DNA of 38,485 nt from Mycobacterium sp. (lineage in GTDB: Bacteria > Actinomycetota > Actinomycetes > Mycobacteriales > Mycobacteriaceae): positions 1 through 38,485 of the forward strand of contig JAGQTQ010000136.1 in the NCBI GenBank assembly GCA_020438905.1, written 5' to 3'. Shown here piece after piece: positions 8,928 to 23,603 of the stretch. The notes beneath the pieces were generated by a model. It had not been told where the DNA came from. It saw nothing but the letters and a program-made list of their open reading frames with translations, and ran no database searches. Numbering within the stretch: position 1 is the first letter of the stretch; every line of letters begins with the position of its first letter. A program made the translations under genes and the position numbers.

Positions 8928-9055
8928 AGACCTCCGGCCGTTTCCAACACGCCCGAGGTCTCTTCCGCCGCCCAGGCGGCCCGCGGAACCGGACGGCCGA
9001 TGGACGGCCGACGTGGTGACGACACCGCGACGAAGGAATACTCCCCTCTGCGAGA
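8928..9055 (-). promoter_or_regulatory. Candidate yybP-ykoY manganese riboswitch with Shine-Dalgarno-sequestering switch, upstream of terC
   Basis: On the minus strand the leader carries GAGGGGAGTA (plus-strand 9039-9048), the hallmark 5' segment of the yybP-ykoY aptamer, then a helical GC-rich core, then AGACCTC (plus-strand 8955-8961), the usual 3' closing segment. GAGG and CCTC can form the base of the aptamer. The same AGACCTC is perfectly complementary (7 bp) to GAGGTCT at plus-strand 8928-8934, which contains the terC Shine-Dalgarno. The two pairings exclude each other: when Mn2+ stabilises the aptamer, the ribosome site is freed. This is an ON-switch reading from sequence and family knowledge; no covariance model was run. 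Confidence 0.75.
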
Positions 9056-9133
9056 GGCAAGTGTGGCAGGCCCAGTTCGCTTCGGCGACACCGGGTCAGC
9101 GCCGAGCACCCCCCGCGCCGCGTTCCTTGACCC

Positions 9134-9139
9134 TAGGAT
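9134..9139 (+). promoter_or_regulatory. Candidate -10 box (TAGGAT) for the Pls-like gene
   Basis: TAGGAT lies 8 nt before GTG 9148, consistent with a leaderless or nearly leaderless transcript. It supports 9148 over the in-frame GTG at 9013, which would put the N-terminus inside the divergent terC riboswitch. Confidence 0.5.
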
Positions 9140-9147
9140 TCACAGAC

Positions 9148-12100
9148 GTGGCGCCGCCTGCGATTCCCGCTCAGTACCTGTTGTCGGGGCGGGCACCGTC
9201 CCCGCGAACACTCGTCGACATCCTGCAGGACACCGCGGCCCGTTACCCGGATGCCGCGGCGATCGACGACGGCGAGGTCCAGCTGACCTATGCCGAGGTG
9301 GTCACCGACATCCGGGCGGGGGCCCGGTGGCTGTCGACGCACGGGATCGGCAGGGGCGACCGGGTCGGCATCCGGATGCCCTCGGGCAGCTATTCGCTGT
9401 ACCTGGCGATCCTGTCGGTGCTGGCGGCCGGTGCGGCCTACGTCCCAGTGGACGCCGACGACCCGGAGGAGCGGGCGGCGCTGGTGTTCTCCGAGGCCGG
9501 AGTCGTCGGAATCCTCACCGAGGGGGGGATCCTGCCCGGCTCGGGCACCTCACGCGGCCGGGCCGCCGAGGCGCCCCGGGTCGGCGACGACGCCTGGATC
9601 ATCTTCACCTCCGGCTCGACCGGAACCCCGAAGGGCGTGGCGGTCAGCCACCGTAACGCCGCGGCCTTCGTCGATGCCGAGGCGCGGATGTTCCTGCGGG
9701 ACAACCCGATCGGACCCGGCGACCGGGTTCTCGCGGGTTTGTCGGTCGGTTTCGACGCGTCCTGCGAGGAGATGTGGCTGGCCTGGCGGCACGGCGCCGC
9801 CCTGGTACCGGCCCCCCGGGCGCTGGTGCGCAGTGGCATGGACCTGGGGCCCTGGCTGGTCGCCCGGGACATCACCGTGGTCTCGACGGTCCCGACCCTG
9901 GCGGCGCTGTGGCCGGCGGAAGCACTGGAGGCGGTGCGGCTGCTGATCTTCGGCGGGGAGGCCTGCCCGCCGGACCTGGCGGACCGGTTGGCCGTGGACG
10001 GCCGCGAGGTGTGGAACACCTACGGCCCCACCGAGGCGACCGTGGTGGCCTGCGGCGCGCAGGTCCACCCCGGCACGCCGGTCAGCATCGGATTGCCACT
10101 GCCGGGCTGGGATCTGGCGGTGGTGGATGCCACCGGCACCCCGGTCGGGTTGGGTGAGGTCGGAGAGTTGGTGATCGGGGGCGTCGGATTGGCCCGCTAC
10201 CTGGATCCGGAGAAGGACGCCGAGAAGTACGCGCCGATGCCGACGCTGGGGTGGGCGCGCGCCTATCGCAGCGGGGATCTGGTGCGGCTGGAATCCGACG
10301 GCCTCTACTTCCAGGGCCGTGCCGATGATCAGGTCAAGGTCGGCGGGCGCCGGATCGAACTGGGCGAGGTGGATTCCGCTCTGGTTCACCTTCCCGGAGT
10401 CAGCGGTGGAGCCGCGGCGGTGCGCAAGACCGCCAGCGGCACACCGGTGCTCGTCGGCTATATCGCCTCCGCCGACCCGAACTTCGACCTGGCGGCCGCC
10501 CGGGCGCACCTGGCCGAGTCGTTGCCCGCGGCGCTGGTGCCGCGCCTGGTCCTGGTCGAGGGCGAACTGCCCACCCGCACCTCGGGAAAGGTCGACCGCA
10601 ACGCGTTGCCGTGGCCCCCACCGGGTGATGTCCCCGATGTCGGATCTCAGCTGGGCGGCACCATGGGCTGGCTCGCCGGGCTGTGGCAGGACGTCCTGGG
10701 CACCGTCGTCGACGGGCCTGAGGCGGATTTCTTCGCCCTCGGCGGCGGTTCGTTGTCCGCGGCGCAACTGGTGGTGCTGCTGCGCGAGCGGTTCGCCGGG
10801 ATGACGGTGGCCCACCTTTACGATCACCCCCGGCTCGGGTCACTTGCCGGTTTCATCGACGAGACGGCCGCCGAGCAGACCGAACAGGTCGCCGTCGAGC
10901 CGCGGACGGTCGCACCCACGCCGGTCGCGGCGCGGCTGGCCCAGGTCGCACTCACCGTGCCGCTGGCCACCCTGACCGCCCTGCAGTGGCTGACCTGGTT
11001 GGCGCTGATCAACAACGTCGCGGCGGCAGTGCACCCACTGCCGTGGCTGTTCACCACACCGTGGTGGCTGATTGCCGTCGCGTTCGTCGCCTTCATCACC
11101 CCGCTGGGCCGGATGGGCATCGCGGTCGCCGGCGCGCGGATTCTGCTGCGCGGACTCCAACCGGGCACCTATCCGCGCGGCGGATCCGAACATCTGCGGG
11201 TGTGGCTGGCCGAACGGCTCACCGAGGCCAGCGGCGCCGAGAACCTGGGCGGCGCGCCGTGGCTGGTCTACTACGCACGCGCACTGGGCAATTCGGTCGG
11301 CAAGGGCGTGGACTTGCATTCGGCCCCGCCGGTCACGGGCATGCTGACCCTCGGCCACCGCTGTTCGGTCGAGCCCGAGGTCGACCTGACCGGACACTGG
11401 ATCGACGGCGACCTGTTCCACGTCGGGCCCATCACGGTCGACAACGACGCCACCATCGGGGCACGAACCACCCTGCTGCCGGGTGCGGTGGTCGGCAAGG
11501 ACGCCGACGTGGCGGCCGGCTCGTGTGTGGTGCACAAGGTGAAGGCCAGGCAGTATTGGAAGGGCTCGCCGGCGGTCAAGTCCGGCAAGGCCCGCCACCC
11601 GTGGCCCGACCACCGCCCGCCGCGTGCCGTGCACTGGGTGGTGATCTACGGAATCTCCTCACTGTTGCTCGGCGCCCTGCCGCTGACCTCTCTCGGGATC
11701 GGGCTTGCCCTGTTGGCCTGGGCCGGCCGGGACGAAGCGACCCTGACCGGGGCACTGCTGGCTTCCGCCCCGTGGATTCCGCCGGCCACCTTGCTCGCCG
11801 CGGTGGTCTACGCGGGGATCACGGTGCTCGGTGTGCGGATCCTGGCACTGGGCCTGCGGGAGGGCTACCACCCGGTCCGAAGCCGGGTCGGCTGGCAGTT
11901 GTGGGCCACCGAACGGCTGATGGACGCCGCACGCAACTACCTGTTCCCGCTCTACGCGAGCATGCTCACCCCGGTGTGGCTGCGGATCCTGGGCGCGAAG
12001 GTCGGCCGCGACACCGAGATCTCGACCGCCCTGCTCACACCGAAGTTCACCGTCATCGAGGATGGCGCATTCCTGGCCGACGACACCATGGTGGCCTCCT

Positions 12101-13065
12101 ACGAACTGGGCGGCGGCTGGATCCACATCGCCAAGACCACGGTGGGACGGCGGGCCTTCCTCGGCAACTCCGGTATCACCCAGCCTGGCCGGCGCGTTCC
12201 CGACGACGGTCTGGTGGCGGTGCTGTCCGCCACCCCGCCAAAGGCCAAGAAGGGGTCGTCCTGGCTGGGCAGCCCGCCGATCAGGCTCCGGCGAAACGCC
12301 GACACCGCCGAGGCGTCGCTGACCTACTCTCCGCCGGCCCGGCTGAAGGCCATGCGCGGGGCCGTCGAGACCTGCCGACTGCTGCCGATGATCGTGACGT
12401 TCGCGATCGGAGTGGGAACCCTGGCGGCCCTGCAGGCGCTCGCCGTGCGGGGCGGCTACTGGCTGGCCGCTCTGGCCGGCGGTGTCGTGCTGTTGATCGC
12501 CGGGGCCGTGGCCGGGGGCACCGCGGTAGCGGCGAAATGGCTTGTTGTTGGGCGAATCCGAACCGGTGAGCAACCGCTGTGGTCGTCGTTCGTCTGGCGC
12601 AATGAAGTGGCCGACGCCTTCGTCGAGACCGTGGCCGCACCGTGGTTCGCCCGGGCCGCCACCGGCACTCCGGTGATGAACCTGTGGCTGCGGGGTCTGG
12701 GGGCGAAGATCGGCCGCGGAGTGTGGTGTGAAACCTACTGGCTGCCCGAGGCGGACCTGGTCACCCTGGGCGCCGGCAGCACGGTCAACCGAGGCTGCGT
12801 GGTGCAGACCCATCTGTTCCATGACCGGATCATGCGGATGGACAGCGTCACCTTGGACCCCGGGGCGACCCTGGGACCCCATTGCGTGGCACTGCCCGCC
12901 TCGCGAATCGGCACGGGGGCGACGATCGGACCCGCCTCGCTGGTGATGCGAGGTGATGAAGTGCCGTCCTCGACACGCTGGCAGGGCAATCCCATCGCGC
13001 CCTGGCAGGAGCGCCGGAAGCGGGGCAAGGCCACAAAGAAGGAGGCGGCCCAGGCCGACACATGA
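9148..13065 (+). CDS. Pls-like single-module peptide synthetase (A-T-membrane-C1-C2-C3), probable omega-poly-amino-acid synthetase
   Basis: A 1305-residue membrane peptide synthetase with the layout and size of Streptomyces epsilon-poly-L-lysine synthetase. Residues ~20-490 form an adenylation domain with FTSGSTGTPKG (153-163), NTYGPTEAT (290-298), YRSGDL and the A10 lysine K481. A carrier domain follows, with phosphopantetheine serine S535 in GGGSL. Then come three cycles of two TM helices plus a soluble domain: TM ~600-660/C1 ~670-820, TM ~828-895/C2 ~910-1060, TM ~1078-1130/C3 ~1140-1290. The C domains show hexapeptide-like turns (e.g. LGAGSTVNRGCVV) as in the tandem acetyltransferase-like domains of Pls. 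No thioesterase or classical condensation domain is seen. Aligned by eye to GrsA, the specificity residues are D203 A204 E207 S246 I267 G269 T291 V299 V300 K481; the acidic E207 suits a basic amino acid and the set resembles the lysine code. It is coupled to the M1 peptidase by a 4-bp ATGA overlap. Confidence 0.88.
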   Translation: MAPPAIPAQYLLSGRAPSPRTLVDILQDTAARYPDAAAIDDGEVQLTYAEVVTDIRAGARWLSTHGIGRGDRVGIRMPSGSYSLYLAILSVLAAGAAYVPVDADDPEERAALVFSEAGVVGILTEGGILPGSGTSRGRAAEAPRVGDDAWIIFTSGSTGTPKGVAVSHRNAAAFVDAEARMFLRDNPIGPGDRVLAGLSVGFDASCEEMWLAWRHGAALVPAPRALVRSGMDLGPWLVARDITVVSTVPTLAALWPAEALEAVRLLIFGGEACPPDLADRLAVDGREVWNTYGPTEATVVACGAQVHPGTPVSIGLPLPGWDLAVVDATGTPVGLGEVGELVIGGVGLARYLDPEKDAEKYAPMPTLGWARAYRSGDLVRLESDGLYFQGRADDQVKVGGRRIELGEVDSALVHLPGVSGGAAAVRKTASGTPVLVGYIASADPNFDLAAARAHLAESLPAALVPRLVLVEGELPTRTSGKVDRNALPWPPPGDVPDVGSQLGGTMGWLAGLWQDVLGTVVDGPEADFFALGGGSLSAAQLVVLLRERFAGMTVAHLYDHPRLGSLAGFIDETAAEQTEQVAVEPRTVAPTPVAARLAQVALTVPLATLTALQWLTWLALINNVAAAVHPLPWLFTTPWWLIAVAFVAFITPLGRMGIAVAGARILLRGLQPGTYPRGGSEHLRVWLAERLTEASGAENLGGAPWLVYYARALGNSVGKGVDLHSAPPVTGMLTLGHRCSVEPEVDLTGHWIDGDLFHVGPITVDNDATIGARTTLLPGAVVGKDADVAAGSCVVHKVKARQYWKGSPAVKSGKARHPWPDHRPPRAVHWVVIYGISSLLLGALPLTSLGIGLALLAWAGRDEATLTGALLASAPWIPPATLLAAVVYAGITVLGVRILALGLREGYHPVRSRVGWQLWATERLMDAARNYLFPLYASMLTPVWLRILGAKVGRDTEISTALLTPKFTVIEDGAFLADDTMVASYELGGGWIHIAKTTVGRRAFLGNSGITQPGRRVPDDGLVAVLSATPPKAKKGSSWLGSPPIRLRRNADTAEASLTYSPPARLKAMRGAVETCRLLPMIVTFAIGVGTLAALQALAVRGGYWLAALAGGVVLLIAGAVAGGTAVAAKWLVVGRIRTGEQPLWSSFVWRNEVADAFVETVAAPWFARAATGTPVMNLWLRGLGAKIGRGVWCETYWLPEADLVTLGAGSTVNRGCVVQTHLFHDRIMRMDSVTLDPGATLGPHCVALPASRIGTGATIGPASLVMRGDEVPSSTRWQGNPIAPWQERRKRGKATKKEAAQADT

Positions 13066-14390
13066 AGAACAGCGCCAAGAAGTCCAGCACCCCGCCGGTC
13101 ATCGACCCCTACCTACCGAACAACGGGAACTTCGGCTACCGGGTGTCCCGCTACGAACTGGATCTGCAGTACAAGGTCAACAGCCATCGGCTGGCAGGAA
13201 CCGCGACGATCACCGCGGTCACGCTGGCTTCGTTGCAGACGTTCACCCTGGATCTGTCGGAAGCCCTGGGCGTCACCAAGGTCACCGTGAACGGCCGCCG
13301 CCCCGCCGGCTTCGCCACCTCGGGGGGAAAGCTGCGAATCCGGCTGGCCGAAGCCCTGCCGACCGGATCGGCGATGTCGATCGCGGTGCGCTACGGCGGT
13401 TCTCCGAAACCGATCCGGACGCTGTGGGGCGAGGTGGGTTTCGAGGAACTGTCCAACGGCGCACTGGTCGCCGGACAGCCCAACGGCTCGCCGTCCTGGT
13501 TCCCGTGCGACGACCATCCCAGTTCCAAGGCCAGCTACCGGATCCAGATCAGCACCGACAGCCCGTATTACGCGGTGGCTCCCGGCGAGCTGGTGGGCCG
13601 GCGGGTCCGTGCCGGACAGACGGTGTGGACCTACGAGCAGCCCGAGCCCACCTCGAGCTACCTGACCACGCTGCAGATCGGGATGTACGGCCTGCACCGC
13701 ATTGCGAAGGCCCCGGTGGCGATGCAGGCCGTCATCCCCGACCGGCTGCGGGCCAATTTCAATCACGACTTCGGCCGTCAGCCGCAGATGCTGAAGCTGT
13801 TCGTCAAGTTGTTCGGCCCCTATCCCCTGAGCAGCGGTTACACGGTCGTGGTGACCGAGGACGATCTGGAGATACCGCTCGAAGCGCAGGGGGTTTCGAT
13901 CTTCGGCGCCAACCACTGCGACGGTGCGCGGGGGTCCGAGCGCCTCATCGCCCACGAACTGGCACACCAATGGTTCGGCAACAGCGTGACCGCCCGGCGC
14001 TGGCGGGACATCTGGCTGCACGAAGGTTTCGCCTGCTACGCCGAATGGCTGTGGTCGGAACACTCCGGCGGCCGCAGCGCCGGGGATCTCGCGGCCGATT
14101 ACCACCAACGACTGCTGGCCGCCCCACAGGATCTGCTGTTGGCCGACCCCGGCCCACGCGACATGTTCGACGACCGCGTCTACAAACGCGGCGCCCTGAC
14201 CCTTCACGCCCTGCGCGGTGTCGTCGGAGACGACAGATTCTTCGCGTTGTTGCGCGACTGGACTACCCGTTACCGGCACGGGACGGTCGTCACCGACGAT
14301 TTCACCGGCCTGGCCGCCAACTACGCCGACGTTTCGCTACGGCCGCTGTGGGAGTCCTGGCTCTATTCGACTGAAGTGCCTGGCCTGTGA
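13062..14390 (+). CDS. M1-family zinc metallopeptidase coupled to the Pls-like synthetase
   Basis: A 442-residue gluzincin peptidase with the zinc site H298-E299-L-A-H302 and third ligand E321 (WLHEGFACY), plus the catalytic-type tyrosine Y374 in VYKRG. The N-terminal half is the M1 beta-sandwich domain. The exopeptidase motif GxMEN is replaced by PLEAQG (272-277): the glutamate that grips the free amino terminus is kept, the asparagine is not, as in several short actinobacterial M1 enzymes. The long C-terminal HEAT-like domain of large aminopeptidases is missing. No signal peptide or TM is visible, so it should be cytosolic. The start overlaps the synthetase stop by 4 bp and its own stop overlaps the next gene by 4 bp. 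From memory, the epsilon-poly-lysine-degrading enzyme of S. albulus is a zinc aminopeptidase of this family, so product processing or self-protection is an attractive but unproven role. Confidence 0.88.
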   Translation: MKNSAKKSSTPPVIDPYLPNNGNFGYRVSRYELDLQYKVNSHRLAGTATITAVTLASLQTFTLDLSEALGVTKVTVNGRRPAGFATSGGKLRIRLAEALPTGSAMSIAVRYGGSPKPIRTLWGEVGFEELSNGALVAGQPNGSPSWFPCDDHPSSKASYRIQISTDSPYYAVAPGELVGRRVRAGQTVWTYEQPEPTSSYLTTLQIGMYGLHRIAKAPVAMQAVIPDRLRANFNHDFGRQPQMLKLFVKLFGPYPLSSGYTVVVTEDDLEIPLEAQGVSIFGANHCDGARGSERLIAHELAHQWFGNSVTARRWRDIWLHEGFACYAEWLWSEHSGGRSAGDLAADYHQRLLAAPQDLLLADPGPRDMFDDRVYKRGALTLHALRGVVGDDRFFALLRDWTTRYRHGTVVTDDFTGLAANYADVSLRPLWESWLYSTEVPGL

Positions 14391-15661
14391 CCGATGCCGG
14401 CGCGGCGTTCGACGCGGTCGGCGCCGCCGCCGGGCCGGCCGCCCGGGGCAGCGTCGCGCGGGTCGGCATCGCCACCGCGATCACCGCCGTATGCGGATAC
14501 GCGGTGCTGTATCTGGCCGCCAGGAAGCTCGAACCGGCCGGATTCTCGGTGTTCGGGGTTTTCTGGGGTGCCTTCGGACTGGTGACGGGGGCGGCCAACG
14601 GACTCCTCCAGGAATCCACCCGGGAGGTCCGCGCAACCTTGCGTCACCCGCCCGGGCCCAAACCCCGGGATTGGGGCCCGCACACCCGGCCGATGTGGGT
14701 CGCCGCCGGCGTGGGACTCGGCGCCGGGATCGTCATCGCCGGGACCTCGCCGCTGTGGTCGGCGCGGGTATTCGCCGAGGCGCGGCCGCTGTCGGTGGCA
14801 TTGCTTTCCCTCGGACTCGCCGGATTCTGTCTGCACGCCACGCTTTTGGGCATGCTGGCCGGAACCGACCGCTGGTCGCACTACGGCTCGCTGATGGTGA
14901 CGGACGCCGTGACCCGTGTGGCCGTCGCCGCGGCCGCATTCGCCCTCGGCTGGGGTCTGGCCGGATTCCTCTGGGCCACCGTCGCCGGCGCACTGGCCTG
15001 GCTTCTGCTGCTCGCCGCCTCGCCGGCGGCCCGATCGGCGGGCGGCTTGCGCACCGCCGGAGAGGTGTCCGGATTTCTTCGCGGGGCAGCGCACTCGATC
15101 GCGGCGGCGGGCGCGAGCGCGGTCCTGGTGATGGGCTTCCCAGTGCTGCTGAAAGCGACCTCCGGCGAACTCGGCGCCGCGGGGGGCGTGGTGATCCTTG
15201 CGGTGACGCTGACCCGGGCACCGCTGCTGGTGCCCCTGACCGCCATGCAGGGCAATCTGATCGCCTACTTCGTCGACCACCGCAGCACGCGGTTCCGGGC
15301 CTTGCTCACCCCGGCGGGGATCGTCGTGAGCGTCGGCGCGATCGGGGTGGTGGGCGCCGCGCTGTTCGGCCCCTGGCTGATGCGGGTGGCCTTCGGCCCG
15401 GAGTACCGCACCAGTGGTGTGCTGCTGGCCTGGCTGACAGTCGCAGCGGTGTCGATCGCACTGCTCACCCTGACCGGCGCGGCGACGGTCGCCTCCGCCC
15501 TGCACCGGGCCTACTCGATCGGCTGGGTGGGGGCGACGGTGGCGGCCACGCTGTTGCTCACCCTTCCGCTATCCCTGGAATCGCGCACGGTGATCGCCCT
15601 GTTGTGCGGTCCCCTGGTCGGGATCGCGGTGCACCTGACGGCGCTGACGCGGGCTCAGTAG
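14387..15661 (+). CDS. Polytopic membrane protein, polysaccharide-export/flippase-like (Rv3630-like)
   Basis: A 424-residue protein made almost entirely of hydrophobic helices (about 12), resembling MATE/Wzx-type oligosaccharide-lipid flippases and the mycobacterial Rv3630. The start GTG overlaps the M1 peptidase stop by 4 bp (GTGA), so the peptidase and this gene are translationally linked even though in M. tuberculosis Rv3630 follows other genes. Downstream is the polyprenyl-phosphate sugar transferase with its DUF2304 partner, so a natural guess is translocation of a polyprenyl-linked sugar such as decaprenyl-phospho-GalNAc across the membrane. That is inference from position; no substrate-defining residues are visible. 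Export of a poly-amino acid is a less likely alternative. Confidence 0.72.
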   Translation: MTDAGAAFDAVGAAAGPAARGSVARVGIATAITAVCGYAVLYLAARKLEPAGFSVFGVFWGAFGLVTGAANGLLQESTREVRATLRHPPGPKPRDWGPHTRPMWVAAGVGLGAGIVIAGTSPLWSARVFAEARPLSVALLSLGLAGFCLHATLLGMLAGTDRWSHYGSLMVTDAVTRVAVAAAAFALGWGLAGFLWATVAGALAWLLLLAASPAARSAGGLRTAGEVSGFLRGAAHSIAAAGASAVLVMGFPVLLKATSGELGAAGGVVILAVTLTRAPLLVPLTAMQGNLIAYFVDHRSTRFRALLTPAGIVVSVGAIGVVGAALFGPWLMRVAFGPEYRTSGVLLAWLTVAAVSIALLTLTGAATVASALHRAYSIGWVGATVAATLLLTLPLSLESRTVIALLCGPLVGIAVHLTALTRAQ

Positions 15662-20502: not shown

Positions 20503-20579
20503 GCGTCCAGCATGCCACCGACTTCGAGTACGGGTTCGCCGGGCCGAGCCGGTCAGCGATGACCTGGCTGAAACGATGG

Positions 20580-20652
20580 AGCCGCCTGGGGGAATCGAAC
20601 CCCCGACCTATTCATTACGAGTGAATCGCTCTGCCGACTGAGCTAAGGCGGC
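20580..20652 (-). tRNA. thrV: tRNA-Thr (anticodon CGT)
   Basis: A complete 73-nt cloverleaf on the minus strand. The acceptor stem GCCGCCT pairs with AGGCGGC, the D arm is GCTCAGTCGGCAGAGC, the anticodon stem ATTCA/TGAAT encloses the loop CTCGTAA with anticodon CGT (reads ACG), and the T arm is GGGGGTTCGATTCCCCC. No CCA is encoded; the discriminator is T. Its position just before the holB gene matches the M. tuberculosis thrV location. Confidence 0.96.
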
Positions 20653-20672: not shown

Positions 20673-21893
20673 TCAGTCTACCCCGGGTGACCGCAGCGCC
20701 TGACCCACGGTCGCGACCATGGCGTCGATGGCGAACTTCGGCTTGACGTTGCCGGCCAGGGCCTCCCGGCAGTCCAGCACCGCCTCGACACAGCGCAACA
20801 ACCGGCCCCTCGGAGCGTGCGCGGCCAGTGCGGCGGCCCGGTCGGCCATATCCGGGTGGCTGGCCGTGACGTCACCGGCTCCGCTGGCGATCATCAGGGC
20901 GTCGCGGAAGTAGGTCGCCAGGTCGATCAGTGCGCGGTCCAGGGCGTCCCTAACGGCGCGGGTGTGCCGTGATTTCTGCCGTTTCTCTAGGTCTTTGAGC
21001 GCACCGGCCGCACCACGCAGCGCCCCGGCGGCGCCCTTGCCCGTGCCGCCCGCGCCCAACGCGACGCGCAACTCCTCGGTCTCGGTCTCGTCGCGTCCGG
21101 CGGTAAGCGCACGCGCCTCCTCCTCGGCGGCGGCCAGCAGCGCCTCGACCGCCGCGTACGCCCGGGCGGGGGTCGCGGCGTCGCGCGCCATGCCCAGAGC
21201 CCGTTCGCGCCGGGCCCGGGCTTCGGCGTCGGTGGCCAACCGTCGCGCCCGGCCGACATGCCCGCCGCTGATCGCCGCAGCCCAGTGCGCCGCACGCTCG
21301 TCGAGTCCGTCGCGCTCGACCAGAACCCGGGCGATGTCCTCGGCTGACGGGGTGAGCAGGGCAACATGCCGACAGCGCGAGCGCAGCGTGATCGCAATGT
21401 CCTCGGGATCCACCGACGGAGCGCACAGCAGGAACACCGTCGAGGGCGGCGGTTCCTCCACCACCTTCAGCAGCGCGTTGGCGGCGCCCTCGGTGAGCCG
21501 GTCGGCGTCTTCGATCACGACGACCTGCCATCGGCCCGTGGTGGGCCGCCGGGATGCCGCTGCCACGATCGCGCGCATCTCGTAGACCCCGATCGACAGC
21601 CCTTCGGGAACAACGCGGCGGACGTCGGCGTGGGTGCCCGCCATCACCGTGGTGCAGGCTCGACACCGTCCGCATCCGGGTACGCCGTCGGAGGTGCACT
21701 GTAGGGCCGCGGCGAAGCACAGCGCCGCAACCGAACGGCCGGACCCCGGCGGCCCGGTGAACAGCCAGGCGTGCGTCATCGACCCGGTTTCGGCGGCGCC
21801 GTGAGCGGAATCACTGCGAGCGGCCCGTGCGGCGGCCACCAACTCCGCCTCAACCGCACTCTGGCCGATCAGCCTTGTGAACACCCCGGACAT
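20673..21893 (-). CDS. holB: DNA polymerase III delta-prime subunit (clamp loader)
   Basis: A 406-residue AAA+ family clamp-loader subunit (Rv3644c-like) that helps load the sliding clamp. The N-terminus MSGVFTRLIGQSAVEAEL is the family start. A zinc-finger cysteine set is present in CTSDGVPGCGRCRACTTV, and SRC with the sensor region occurs in ITLRSRCRHVALL. The P-loop reads GPPGSGRS, with arginine in place of the catalytic lysine, consistent with delta-prime subunits that do not hydrolyse ATP. The C-terminal third contains charged helices (EEEARALTAGRDETETEEL, KDLEKRQKSRHTRAVRDALDRAL) and the collar domain. ATG 21893; an open frame continues upstream to 22514 without support. Confidence 0.9.
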   Translation of the reverse strand: MSGVFTRLIGQSAVEAELVAAARAARSDSAHGAAETGSMTHAWLFTGPPGSGRSVAALCFAAALQCTSDGVPGCGRCRACTTVMAGTHADVRRVVPEGLSIGVYEMRAIVAAASRRPTTGRWQVVVIEDADRLTEGAANALLKVVEEPPPSTVFLLCAPSVDPEDIAITLRSRCRHVALLTPSAEDIARVLVERDGLDERAAHWAAAISGGHVGRARRLATDAEARARRERALGMARDAATPARAYAAVEALLAAAEEEARALTAGRDETETEELRVALGAGGTGKGAAGALRGAAGALKDLEKRQKSRHTRAVRDALDRALIDLATYFRDALMIASGAGDVTASHPDMADRAAALAAHAPRGRLLRCVEAVLDCREALAGNVKPKFAIDAMVATVGQALRSPGVD

Positions 21894-21992
21894 CGCCTGC
21901 CAACAGTAGTCGAGCCGCCGGCTTCGTCCGGCTCCCGCGCGGCCGGAGGCCCGGCGGCCGGCAACGGGCCGGAACCGGGCGGCACCGGGGGC

Positions 21993-21998
21993 TACGGT
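21993..21998 (+). promoter_or_regulatory. Candidate -10 box (TACGGT) for a leaderless adenylate-cyclase transcript
   Basis: TACGGT is followed by exactly 6 nt and then GTG 22005, the canonical leaderless spacing. Two further GTG codons (21999 and 22002) lie in the spacer, so this box helps choose the start. Confidence 0.5.
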
Positions 21999-22004
21999 GT
22001 GGTG

Positions 22005-23603
22005 GTGAACAGCGCGCCGGCCACGCCGGGACGGATTCGTGAGTTCGTCCGCTGGGTGGTTCGCACACCATGGCCGGTGTTCTCGCTGGGGTTGCTGCAG
22101 GCCGACATCATCGGCGCGCTGCTGGTGCTGGGCTTCCTGAGGTTCGGGCTGCCGCCGGCCGACCGGATCAAGCTCCAAGATCTGCCGGGTATCAATCTGG
22201 CGGTCTTCATCGGGTATCTGCTCGTGTCGTTCCTGGTCGGCGCGTCGGTCAGTTTCAGCCTGCTGCGACCGGTGTTCCGCTGGCAGCGGCGGGACACGAT
22301 GCTCACCGAAGACGACCCCGCCGAGACCGAACAGGCGAGGCTCCGCGCGCTGCGGATGCCGGCCTACCGGTCCATGATCAGCATGACGCTGTGGCTGGTG
22401 GGGGCCGCGGTCTTCATCGCCGCGAGTTGGCCGGTGGCCAGCCAGGCCGCGCCGGTGATCGCGGTGGCCACCCTCTTGGGTGCCATCGCCACGGCGATCA
22501 TCGGCTATCTGCAATCCGAACGGGTGCTTCGGCCGGTGGCCGTCGCAGCCCTGCGCGGCGGTGTGCCGGAGAACTTCCGCCGGCCCGGAGTGGTACTGCG
22601 ACTGGTGTTGCCCTGGTTGCTCTCCACCGGGGTACCACTGCTGATGATCATCCTGTCCGTCGCCGCCAGCGAGTTCGCCCTGCTGAACTCCTCCCCCGAC
22701 AGCCTGTCCATCCCGATCATGTTGATGGCGGCCGCAGCGCTGGTGATCGGCCTGGTCGGCAACATCCTCTCAGCGATGGCGATCTCCGATCCGCTGCGCC
22801 AATTGCGCTGGTCCCTCGGCGAGGTGCAGCGCGGAAACTACAACGCGCACATGCAGATCTACGACGCCAGTGAACTCGGACTGCTCCAAGCCGGATTCAA
22901 CGACATGGTGCGCGAACTCAGTGAGCGGCAACGGATGCGGGATCTTTTCGGCCGCTACGTCGGAGAGGACGTCGCCCGCCGCGCGCTGGAGCGCGGAACC
23001 GAACTCGGCGGCCAGGAGCGCGACGTCGCCGTGCTGTTCATCGACCTCGTCGGCTCCACGCAGCTGGCGGCTACCCGGCCGCCGGTGGAGGTGGTAGGAC
23101 TGCTCAACGAGTTCTTCCGCGTCGTCGTCGACACCGTCCAGAACCACGGCGGTTTCGTCAACAAGTTCCAGGGCGACGCCGCGCTGTGCATCTTCGGCGC
23201 GCCGATCGAACACCCCGACGCCCCCGGGGCCGCGCTGGCGGCCTCGCGCGAGCTGCACGACGAACTCGTCGCGGTGCTCGATCAGATCGAGTTCGGCATC
23301 GGGGTGTCGGCGGGACGCGCGATCGCCGGCCATATCGGCGCCCAGGCCAGATTCGAGTACACCGTGATCGGCGACCCGGTGAACGAGGCCGCCCGGTTGA
23401 CCGAACTGGCCAAACTCGAGGAGGGACGCGTGCTGGCTTCGGCGATCGCGGTCAGCGGCGCCGCCGACGCGGAGGCGCTGTGCTGGAGCGTCGGCGAGAT
23501 CGTGGAGTTGCGGGGACGCACGGCTCCGACCCAGTTGGCACGGCCGGTCAGACAGCCGGTTGCCGACGAATCCCGGGAACCGGTCGGCGGCATCGCCGGC
23601 TGA
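22005..23603 (+). CDS. Membrane adenylate cyclase with HAMP and class III catalytic domain (Rv3645-like)
   Basis: A 532-residue cyclase that makes cAMP from ATP at the inner face of the membrane. About six TM helices span residues ~20-255, a HAMP linker begins near 259 (ISDPLRQLRWSLGEVQRGNY) and the class III cyclase domain covers ~340-510. Catalytic residues are complete: metal-binding D347 (VLFIDLVGST) and D391 (KFQGD), adenine-selecting K387 and D457, transition-state N460 and R464 (IGDPVNEAARL). The HAMP and catalytic parts are nearly identical to Rv3645, whose cAMP is reported to matter for fatty-acid use and intrinsic drug tolerance in M. tuberculosis. The N-terminus is shorter than the annotated Rv3645 start. 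The gene ends 10 bp from convergent topA. Confidence 0.92.
   Translation: MNSAPATPGRIREFVRWVVRTPWPVFSLGLLQADIIGALLVLGFLRFGLPPADRIKLQDLPGINLAVFIGYLLVSFLVGASVSFSLLRPVFRWQRRDTMLTEDDPAETEQARLRALRMPAYRSMISMTLWLVGAAVFIAASWPVASQAAPVIAVATLLGAIATAIIGYLQSERVLRPVAVAALRGGVPENFRRPGVVLRLVLPWLLSTGVPLLMIILSVAASEFALLNSSPDSLSIPIMLMAAAALVIGLVGNILSAMAISDPLRQLRWSLGEVQRGNYNAHMQIYDASELGLLQAGFNDMVRELSERQRMRDLFGRYVGEDVARRALERGTELGGQERDVAVLFIDLVGSTQLAATRPPVEVVGLLNEFFRVVVDTVQNHGGFVNKFQGDAALCIFGAPIEHPDAPGAALAASRELHDELVAVLDQIEFGIGVSAGRAIAGHIGAQARFEYTVIGDPVNEAARLTELAKLEEGRVLASAIAVSGAADAEALCWSVGEIVELRGRTAPTQLARPVRQPVADESREPVGGIAG

Follow-up and report, generated by a model that had tools for sequence, protein, structure and literature searches.

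The polymerisation chemistry of epsilon-poly-L-lysine (epsilon-PL) has been described for Streptomyces (PMC9205021), and in S. albulus the synthetase gene pls is reported to form an operon, with a 4-nucleotide (nt) overlap, with pldII, which encodes the main epsilon-PL-degrading enzyme (PMC4361855). PldII is portrayed as an endo-acting aminopeptidase situated outside the membrane (PMC9223678). PosA, the delta-poly-L-ornithine synthetase of Acinetobacter baumannii, is represented in a published model by a membrane bundle of six helices that carries three left-handed beta-helices (PMC10522769). We analysed a 38,485-nt stretch of DNA from a Mycobacterium sp. (assembly GCA_020438905.1, contig JAGQTQ010000136.1), the whole of which is called the window below. 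Judging from its sequence, a forward-strand gene at positions 9148-13065 is very likely to code for a member of the already known epsilon-PL synthetase (Pls) type, and we consider it highly likely that the window carries a mycobacterial epsilon-PL synthetase paired with a peptidase that degrades its product.

Corynebacterium is a mycolic-acid genus related to Mycobacterium. The Pls of Corynebacterium variabile DSM 44702 has the same architecture as the window protein and is encoded in an operon with a peptidase gene; it differs in that epsilon-PL production was shown in S. coelicolor, where ordinary 26-35-mers were reported, whereas the product of the window enzyme is predicted (PMC8117764). 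For Nocardia, another related genus, a poly-lysine synthetase (e.g. nfa3790) was predicted in 2014, in a different genus from that of the window and as a prediction only in the source (PMC4035055); the Nocardia loci fetched here have the same substrate-pocket code as the window gene and a peptidase homologue downstream. PosA likewise has a single adenylation-thiolation (A-T) module, followed by a C-terminal region reported to contain six helices, but is given a different pocket code and an ornithine substrate (PMC10522769). The S. albulus Pls-PldII pair resembles the window pair in its A-T module followed by three transmembrane (TM)-pair/acetyltransferase-like domains, its identical ten-residue code and its downstream peptidase gene overlapping by 4 nt, but the A domain is 66% identical to that of the window protein (319 of 482 aligned residues, structure 7wew). 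Moreover, the neighbourhood of the window pair is kept across mycobacteria, whereas pls of S. albulus ZPM has been placed in a secondary-metabolite cluster of 42.7 kb (PMC4361855). The enzyme family is already known, the naming model of the National Center for Biotechnology Information (NCBI) matching the window protein above its cut-off, and the Nocardia and Corynebacterium precedents are in print. No report of epsilon-polylysine from any mycobacterium was found in the literature searched, in which a genome-mining paper listing such clusters could be missed.

The synthetase frame (9148-13065, + strand) has a GTG start, a TGA stop and no internal stop, and encodes 1305 amino acids (aa). Its exact start is uncertain, because the frame is already open from an in-frame GTG at 9013, which would give an alternative product of 1350 aa. 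The G+C content at codon positions 1, 2 and 3 of 9013-13065 (0.71, 0.54 and 0.87) is the pattern of a coding frame. The source genome assembly is 84.9% complete and contains a single match above cut-off to TIGR02353, the NCBIfam model of the “Pls/PosA family non-ribosomal peptide synthetase”.

The sequence-only reading had proposed a Pls-type enzyme with one A-T module, and its domain motifs were borne out by both Pfam and NCBIfam, with matches to the AMP-binding, PP-binding and Pls/PosA C-terminal models alike. At E≤0.001, Pfam identified one AMP-binding domain (residues 27-350), one PP-binding domain (PF00550, residues 508-570, positions 10669-10857, + strand; 45.1 bits), a hexapeptide stretch and nothing else, with no condensation or thioesterase domain detected in the synthetase at this threshold. 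TIGR02353 matched residues 598-1283 (10939-12996, + strand) end to end, from 2 to 695 of its 695 positions, with 742.5 bits (E 4.6e-223) against a curated cut-off of 423.1. The mismatch with the Pls C1-C3 tandem that would have spoken against the sequence-only reading was thus not seen. Within this C-terminal polymerisation region, the three acetyltransferase-like soluble repeats, C1-C3, are mutually homologous (pairwise hhalign probabilities of 98.7, 98.6 and 95.5%), and each appears to be preceded by a hydrophobic pair. An ordinary non-ribosomal peptide synthetase (NRPS) was considered and rejected, as the best solved match, the S. albulus Pls A domain 7wew, scored 648 bits, whereas the other solved NRPS chains among the best 60 of 183 matches cover only the A-T part and reach at most 380 bits; the lack of a condensation domain in the Pfam search also argues against it.

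The proposal that three cycles of a TM pair and a soluble domain follow the A-T module held for the three homologous repeats, and three TM pairs are a tentative fit to the hydropathy. Hydropathy averaged over 29 aligned rows (the window protein and 28 of the 80 loci described below) gave seven peaks above 1.1, five of them strong, at residues 651, 848, 887, 1087 and 1118 (1.93-2.24), and two weaker, at 609 (1.33) and 941 (1.19). Six of these fit three TM pairs (609/651, 848/887 and 1087/1118), the first helix being weak and the peak at 941 extra. In the window protein alone, at a threshold of 1.6, the first TM helix was missed and a stretch of the A domain (residues 83-102) scored instead.

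The two residues named in the sequence-only reading were found at the positions it gave. Lysine K481 of the A domain (code position 517; 10588-10590, + strand) is conserved in all 82 aligned rows, and S535, the phosphopantetheine serine of the thiolation domain (10750-10752, + strand), is serine in 81 of the 82, the single gap fitting the 7wew row, which consists of an A domain only. The A domain itself (residues 8-492, 9169-10623, + strand) aligns to 7wew. Its pocket code, at residues 203, 204, 207, 246, 267, 269, 291, 299, 300 and 481, reads D A E S I G T V V K and is identical to that of S. albulus Pls at all ten positions, which were assigned from sequence motifs using the classical numbering. 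The same code was read in 77 of 80 loci, a set made up of the 80 most similar to the window among the 585 listed, and the other three, which are cut at the front, agree where readable.

Identity of the ten-position code with that of S. albulus Pls makes L-lysine the likely monomer of the window synthetase. According to PMC10522769, the code of the ornithine enzyme PosA is D M E H N G T V S K, differing from the window code at four of ten positions, and that of the beta-lysine enzyme is D G E S I S V V N K; the second pocket position is alanine in lysine-activating members and phenylalanine in the diaminopropionate enzyme. Ornithine, diaminopropionate and beta-lysine were accordingly rejected as likely monomers, their published codes differing from that of the window. 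The product class put forward from the sequence, a homopolymer of a basic amino acid, is supported by these data, and the pocket code and the synthetase-peptidase pair would narrow it to lysine.

The downstream gene (13062-14390, + strand) encodes an M1-family metallopeptidase of 442 aa (Pfam PF01433, 92 bits), a candidate PldII-type polymer-degrading enzyme. Its frame, beginning with ATG, shares 4 nt with the end of the synthetase frame (ATGA, 13062-13065, + strand), which suggests translational coupling of the two genes. All 79 loci that extend far enough have a homologue of this peptidase after the synthetase gene and in the same orientation; the 80th ends with the synthetase. A start codon is placed so as to give an overlap of 4 nt in 54 of the 79 and of 1 nt in 14, and in the remaining 11 the nearest start follows the synthetase stop at a distance of 3 to 2106 nt. 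The M1 zinc motif HEXXH-X18-E is present in 80 of 80 peptidase rows (HELAH in 79, HELSH in one, each with the glutamate). M1 aminopeptidases usually carry a GXMEN site motif, which in the window peptidase reads PLEAQ. At this site, (L/I/V)EAQ was found in all twelve variants printed, which cover 70 of the 80 rows. The altered site may fit an unusual amine substrate, and (L/I/V)EAQ might mark an M1 subfamily that degrades polymers. By analogy with PldII, the window peptidase may cut the polymer.

The chemistry envisaged for this pair is carried over from work on Streptomyces and Corynebacterium (PMC9205021, PMC8117764). The A domain would adenylate L-lysine with ATP, and the activated lysine would be transferred to the phosphopantetheine of S535, where it is bound as a thioester. 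Embedded in the membrane, the C1-C3 region would then repeatedly couple the loaded carboxyl group to an epsilon-amine, either that of a free lysine or that of the growing chain, giving a short cationic isopeptide that would leave the cell or stay at its surface. The coupled M1 peptidase would trim or degrade the polymer and in this way limit its length or protect the producer. Polymer production by this organism, with its timing and purpose, is something we infer.

The sequence-only reading had called such an enzyme unexpected in a mycobacterium, and this view found no support in the genome survey. In an even draw of 198 genomes of the genus, the source genome included, TIGR02353 was detected in 150 at E≤1e-50 (149 above cut-off), and in a corresponding draw of 201 genomes of the family it was found in 184, representing 28 of 31 genera; only one of 14 well-known genomes used as a control, that of Corynebacterium glutamicum, has it at this threshold. 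The synthetase gene is ordinary for its lineage, being common in the sampled genus and family. The peptidase was also found in 150 of the 198 genus genomes. Both genes occur in 149 and neither in 47, with one genome having the synthetase only (G182) and one, 63% complete, the peptidase only (G126). G182 carries a more divergent TIGR02353 match (592 bits), with no peptidase homologue at E≤1e-40, and its synthetase possibly represents another branch of the Pls/PosA family. The distribution is established here for these samples, as are the domain anatomy, the identity of the pocket code and the gene pair.

A quick tree with a midpoint root, inferred from 78 of the 82 rows (7wew and three loci shorter than 1150 aa were dropped), placed the window protein within a clade of 37 rows with 100% support in the Shimodaira-Hasegawa-like approximate likelihood ratio test (SH-aLRT). 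The other 36 rows comprise 31 titled Mycobacterium, Mycolicibacterium or Mycolicibacter, four from actinobacterial bins that bear no genus name, and a single row from a metagenome-assembled genome titled Bifidobacterium breve (L027). In L027 the synthetase lies inside the mycobacterial clade and the gene order is that of the window; it is probably a mislabelled or mixed bin. A recent horizontal acquisition was rejected as unlikely, the window protein being nested in a mycobacterial clade with full support, and the synthetase looks mostly vertically inherited in the sampled mycobacterial and related genomes on this midpoint-rooted tree.

The genomic surroundings provide empty sites for comparison. 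Of the 48 genus members that lack the synthetase, ten were selected because the neighbouring gene lay on a usable contig (L085-L094), and these keep the gene order of the window, from the homologue of the gene at 1706-2707 (in 9 of 10 stretches) to Ppa, continuing with the homologue of the gene at 14387-15661, a glycosyltransferase, an epimerase and the next gene. No synthetase or peptidase homologue was found in these ten stretches at E≤1e-8, and the position of the missing pair is between Ppa and the 14387-15661 homologue. At the same threshold TerC was not found in 9 of the 10 stretches, nor UraD in any of them; in L094, TerC directly adjoins the 14387-15661 homologue, leaving a site empty of just the pair. 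Conversely, in the mycobacterial loci L017, L021, L026 and partly L031, the pair occurs with few or no window neighbours within the fetched stretch, which suggests that the synthetase and the peptidase move as a unit.

The gene at 14387-15661, which follows the pair and precedes a gene for a family 2 glycosyltransferase, encodes a polytopic membrane protein of 424 aa for which Pfam gave no match, even when E was relaxed to 1. A tie between this gene and the synthetase was rejected, because its homologue is present in 194 of the 198 genus genomes, against 150 for the synthetase. Elsewhere in the window, a tRNA-Thr gene (anticodon CGT) lies on the minus strand at 20577-20652, beside a minus-strand frame (20673-22514) matching DNA polymerase III delta-prime-type Pfam models.

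Several other explanations of the locus deserve consideration. The enzyme might be a Pls/PosA-family synthetase with a different cationic isopeptide as its product, built from ornithine, diaminobutyrate, diaminopropionate or beta-lysine, or mixed in composition. Several polymers of this sort come from the family, with codes that vary between members (PMC10522769), and the prediction of a product from a pocket code is indirect, but agreement with S. albulus Pls at every pocket position, when the PosA code departs at four of ten, and a pls-peptidase context unlike that of the other three actinobacterial synthetases, as presented by Jiang et al. (PMC8117764), make this quite unlikely. A decayed or non-functional remnant of pls would sit easily with an incomplete assembly, but the gene is full length and free of internal stops, its motif residues are kept and both genes of the pair are intact, so that we regard this as very improbable indeed.

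A further explanation concerns the fate of the product and is compatible with epsilon-PL synthesis: instead of a secreted antimicrobial polymer, the enzyme may produce a lysine oligomer of short length or an acceptor modified with lysine, which would be kept inside the cell or fixed to the envelope and recycled by the peptidase. The presence of the synthetase in most genus and family genomes and a neighbourhood kept genus-wide, unlike a sporadic antibiotic cluster, speak for this, as does a peptidase without an evident hydrophobic segment. The ordinary chain lengths obtained with the C. variabile enzyme in S. coelicolor (26-35-mers; PMC8117764) argue the other way, and we see no gene for an acceptor or for attachment that is linked to the synthetase and peptidase, the gene that follows them being present in 194 of 198 genus genomes and the synthetase in 150. 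We consider this fate unlikely.

Our preferred interpretation, a mycobacterial epsilon-PL synthetase with a paired degrading peptidase, has points against it as well. A product, activity or expression has been shown for no mycobacterium. No polymer was detected in the reported cultures of C. variabile or of C. glutamicum carrying its gene (PMC8117764); because C. variabile thus carries a working gene without detectable polymer in culture, the gene may be silent in the window organism too. The uniform code of the 80 loci provides no independent support for the wider family, because the loci were chosen by their similarity to the window. Finally, hydropathy identified no hydrophobic stretch above 1.6 in the window peptidase, whereas the published location of PldII is outside the membrane (PMC9223678). 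Even so, the identification made in the sequence-only reading is right, and is here sharpened to a probable epsilon-poly-L-lysine synthetase with a coupled peptidase.

It is possible, although we hold the idea tentatively, that most species of the genus make an envelope epsilon-polylysine that nobody has sought, turned over by the M1 peptidase, and that the pair has been cleanly lost from a fixed site in some lineages. The combination of a domain and a peptidase each present in 150 of 198 genus genomes, a lysine code in every code-complete mycobacterial locus fetched and a product unreported in the literature searched is a useful one, and therefore makes the production of epsilon-polylysine by mycobacteria a simple question to ask, for which the natural presence or absence of the pair at one fixed site provides ready comparisons. 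If the idea is correct, a surface polycation would be an undescribed and lineage-variable part of mycobacterial envelope biology.

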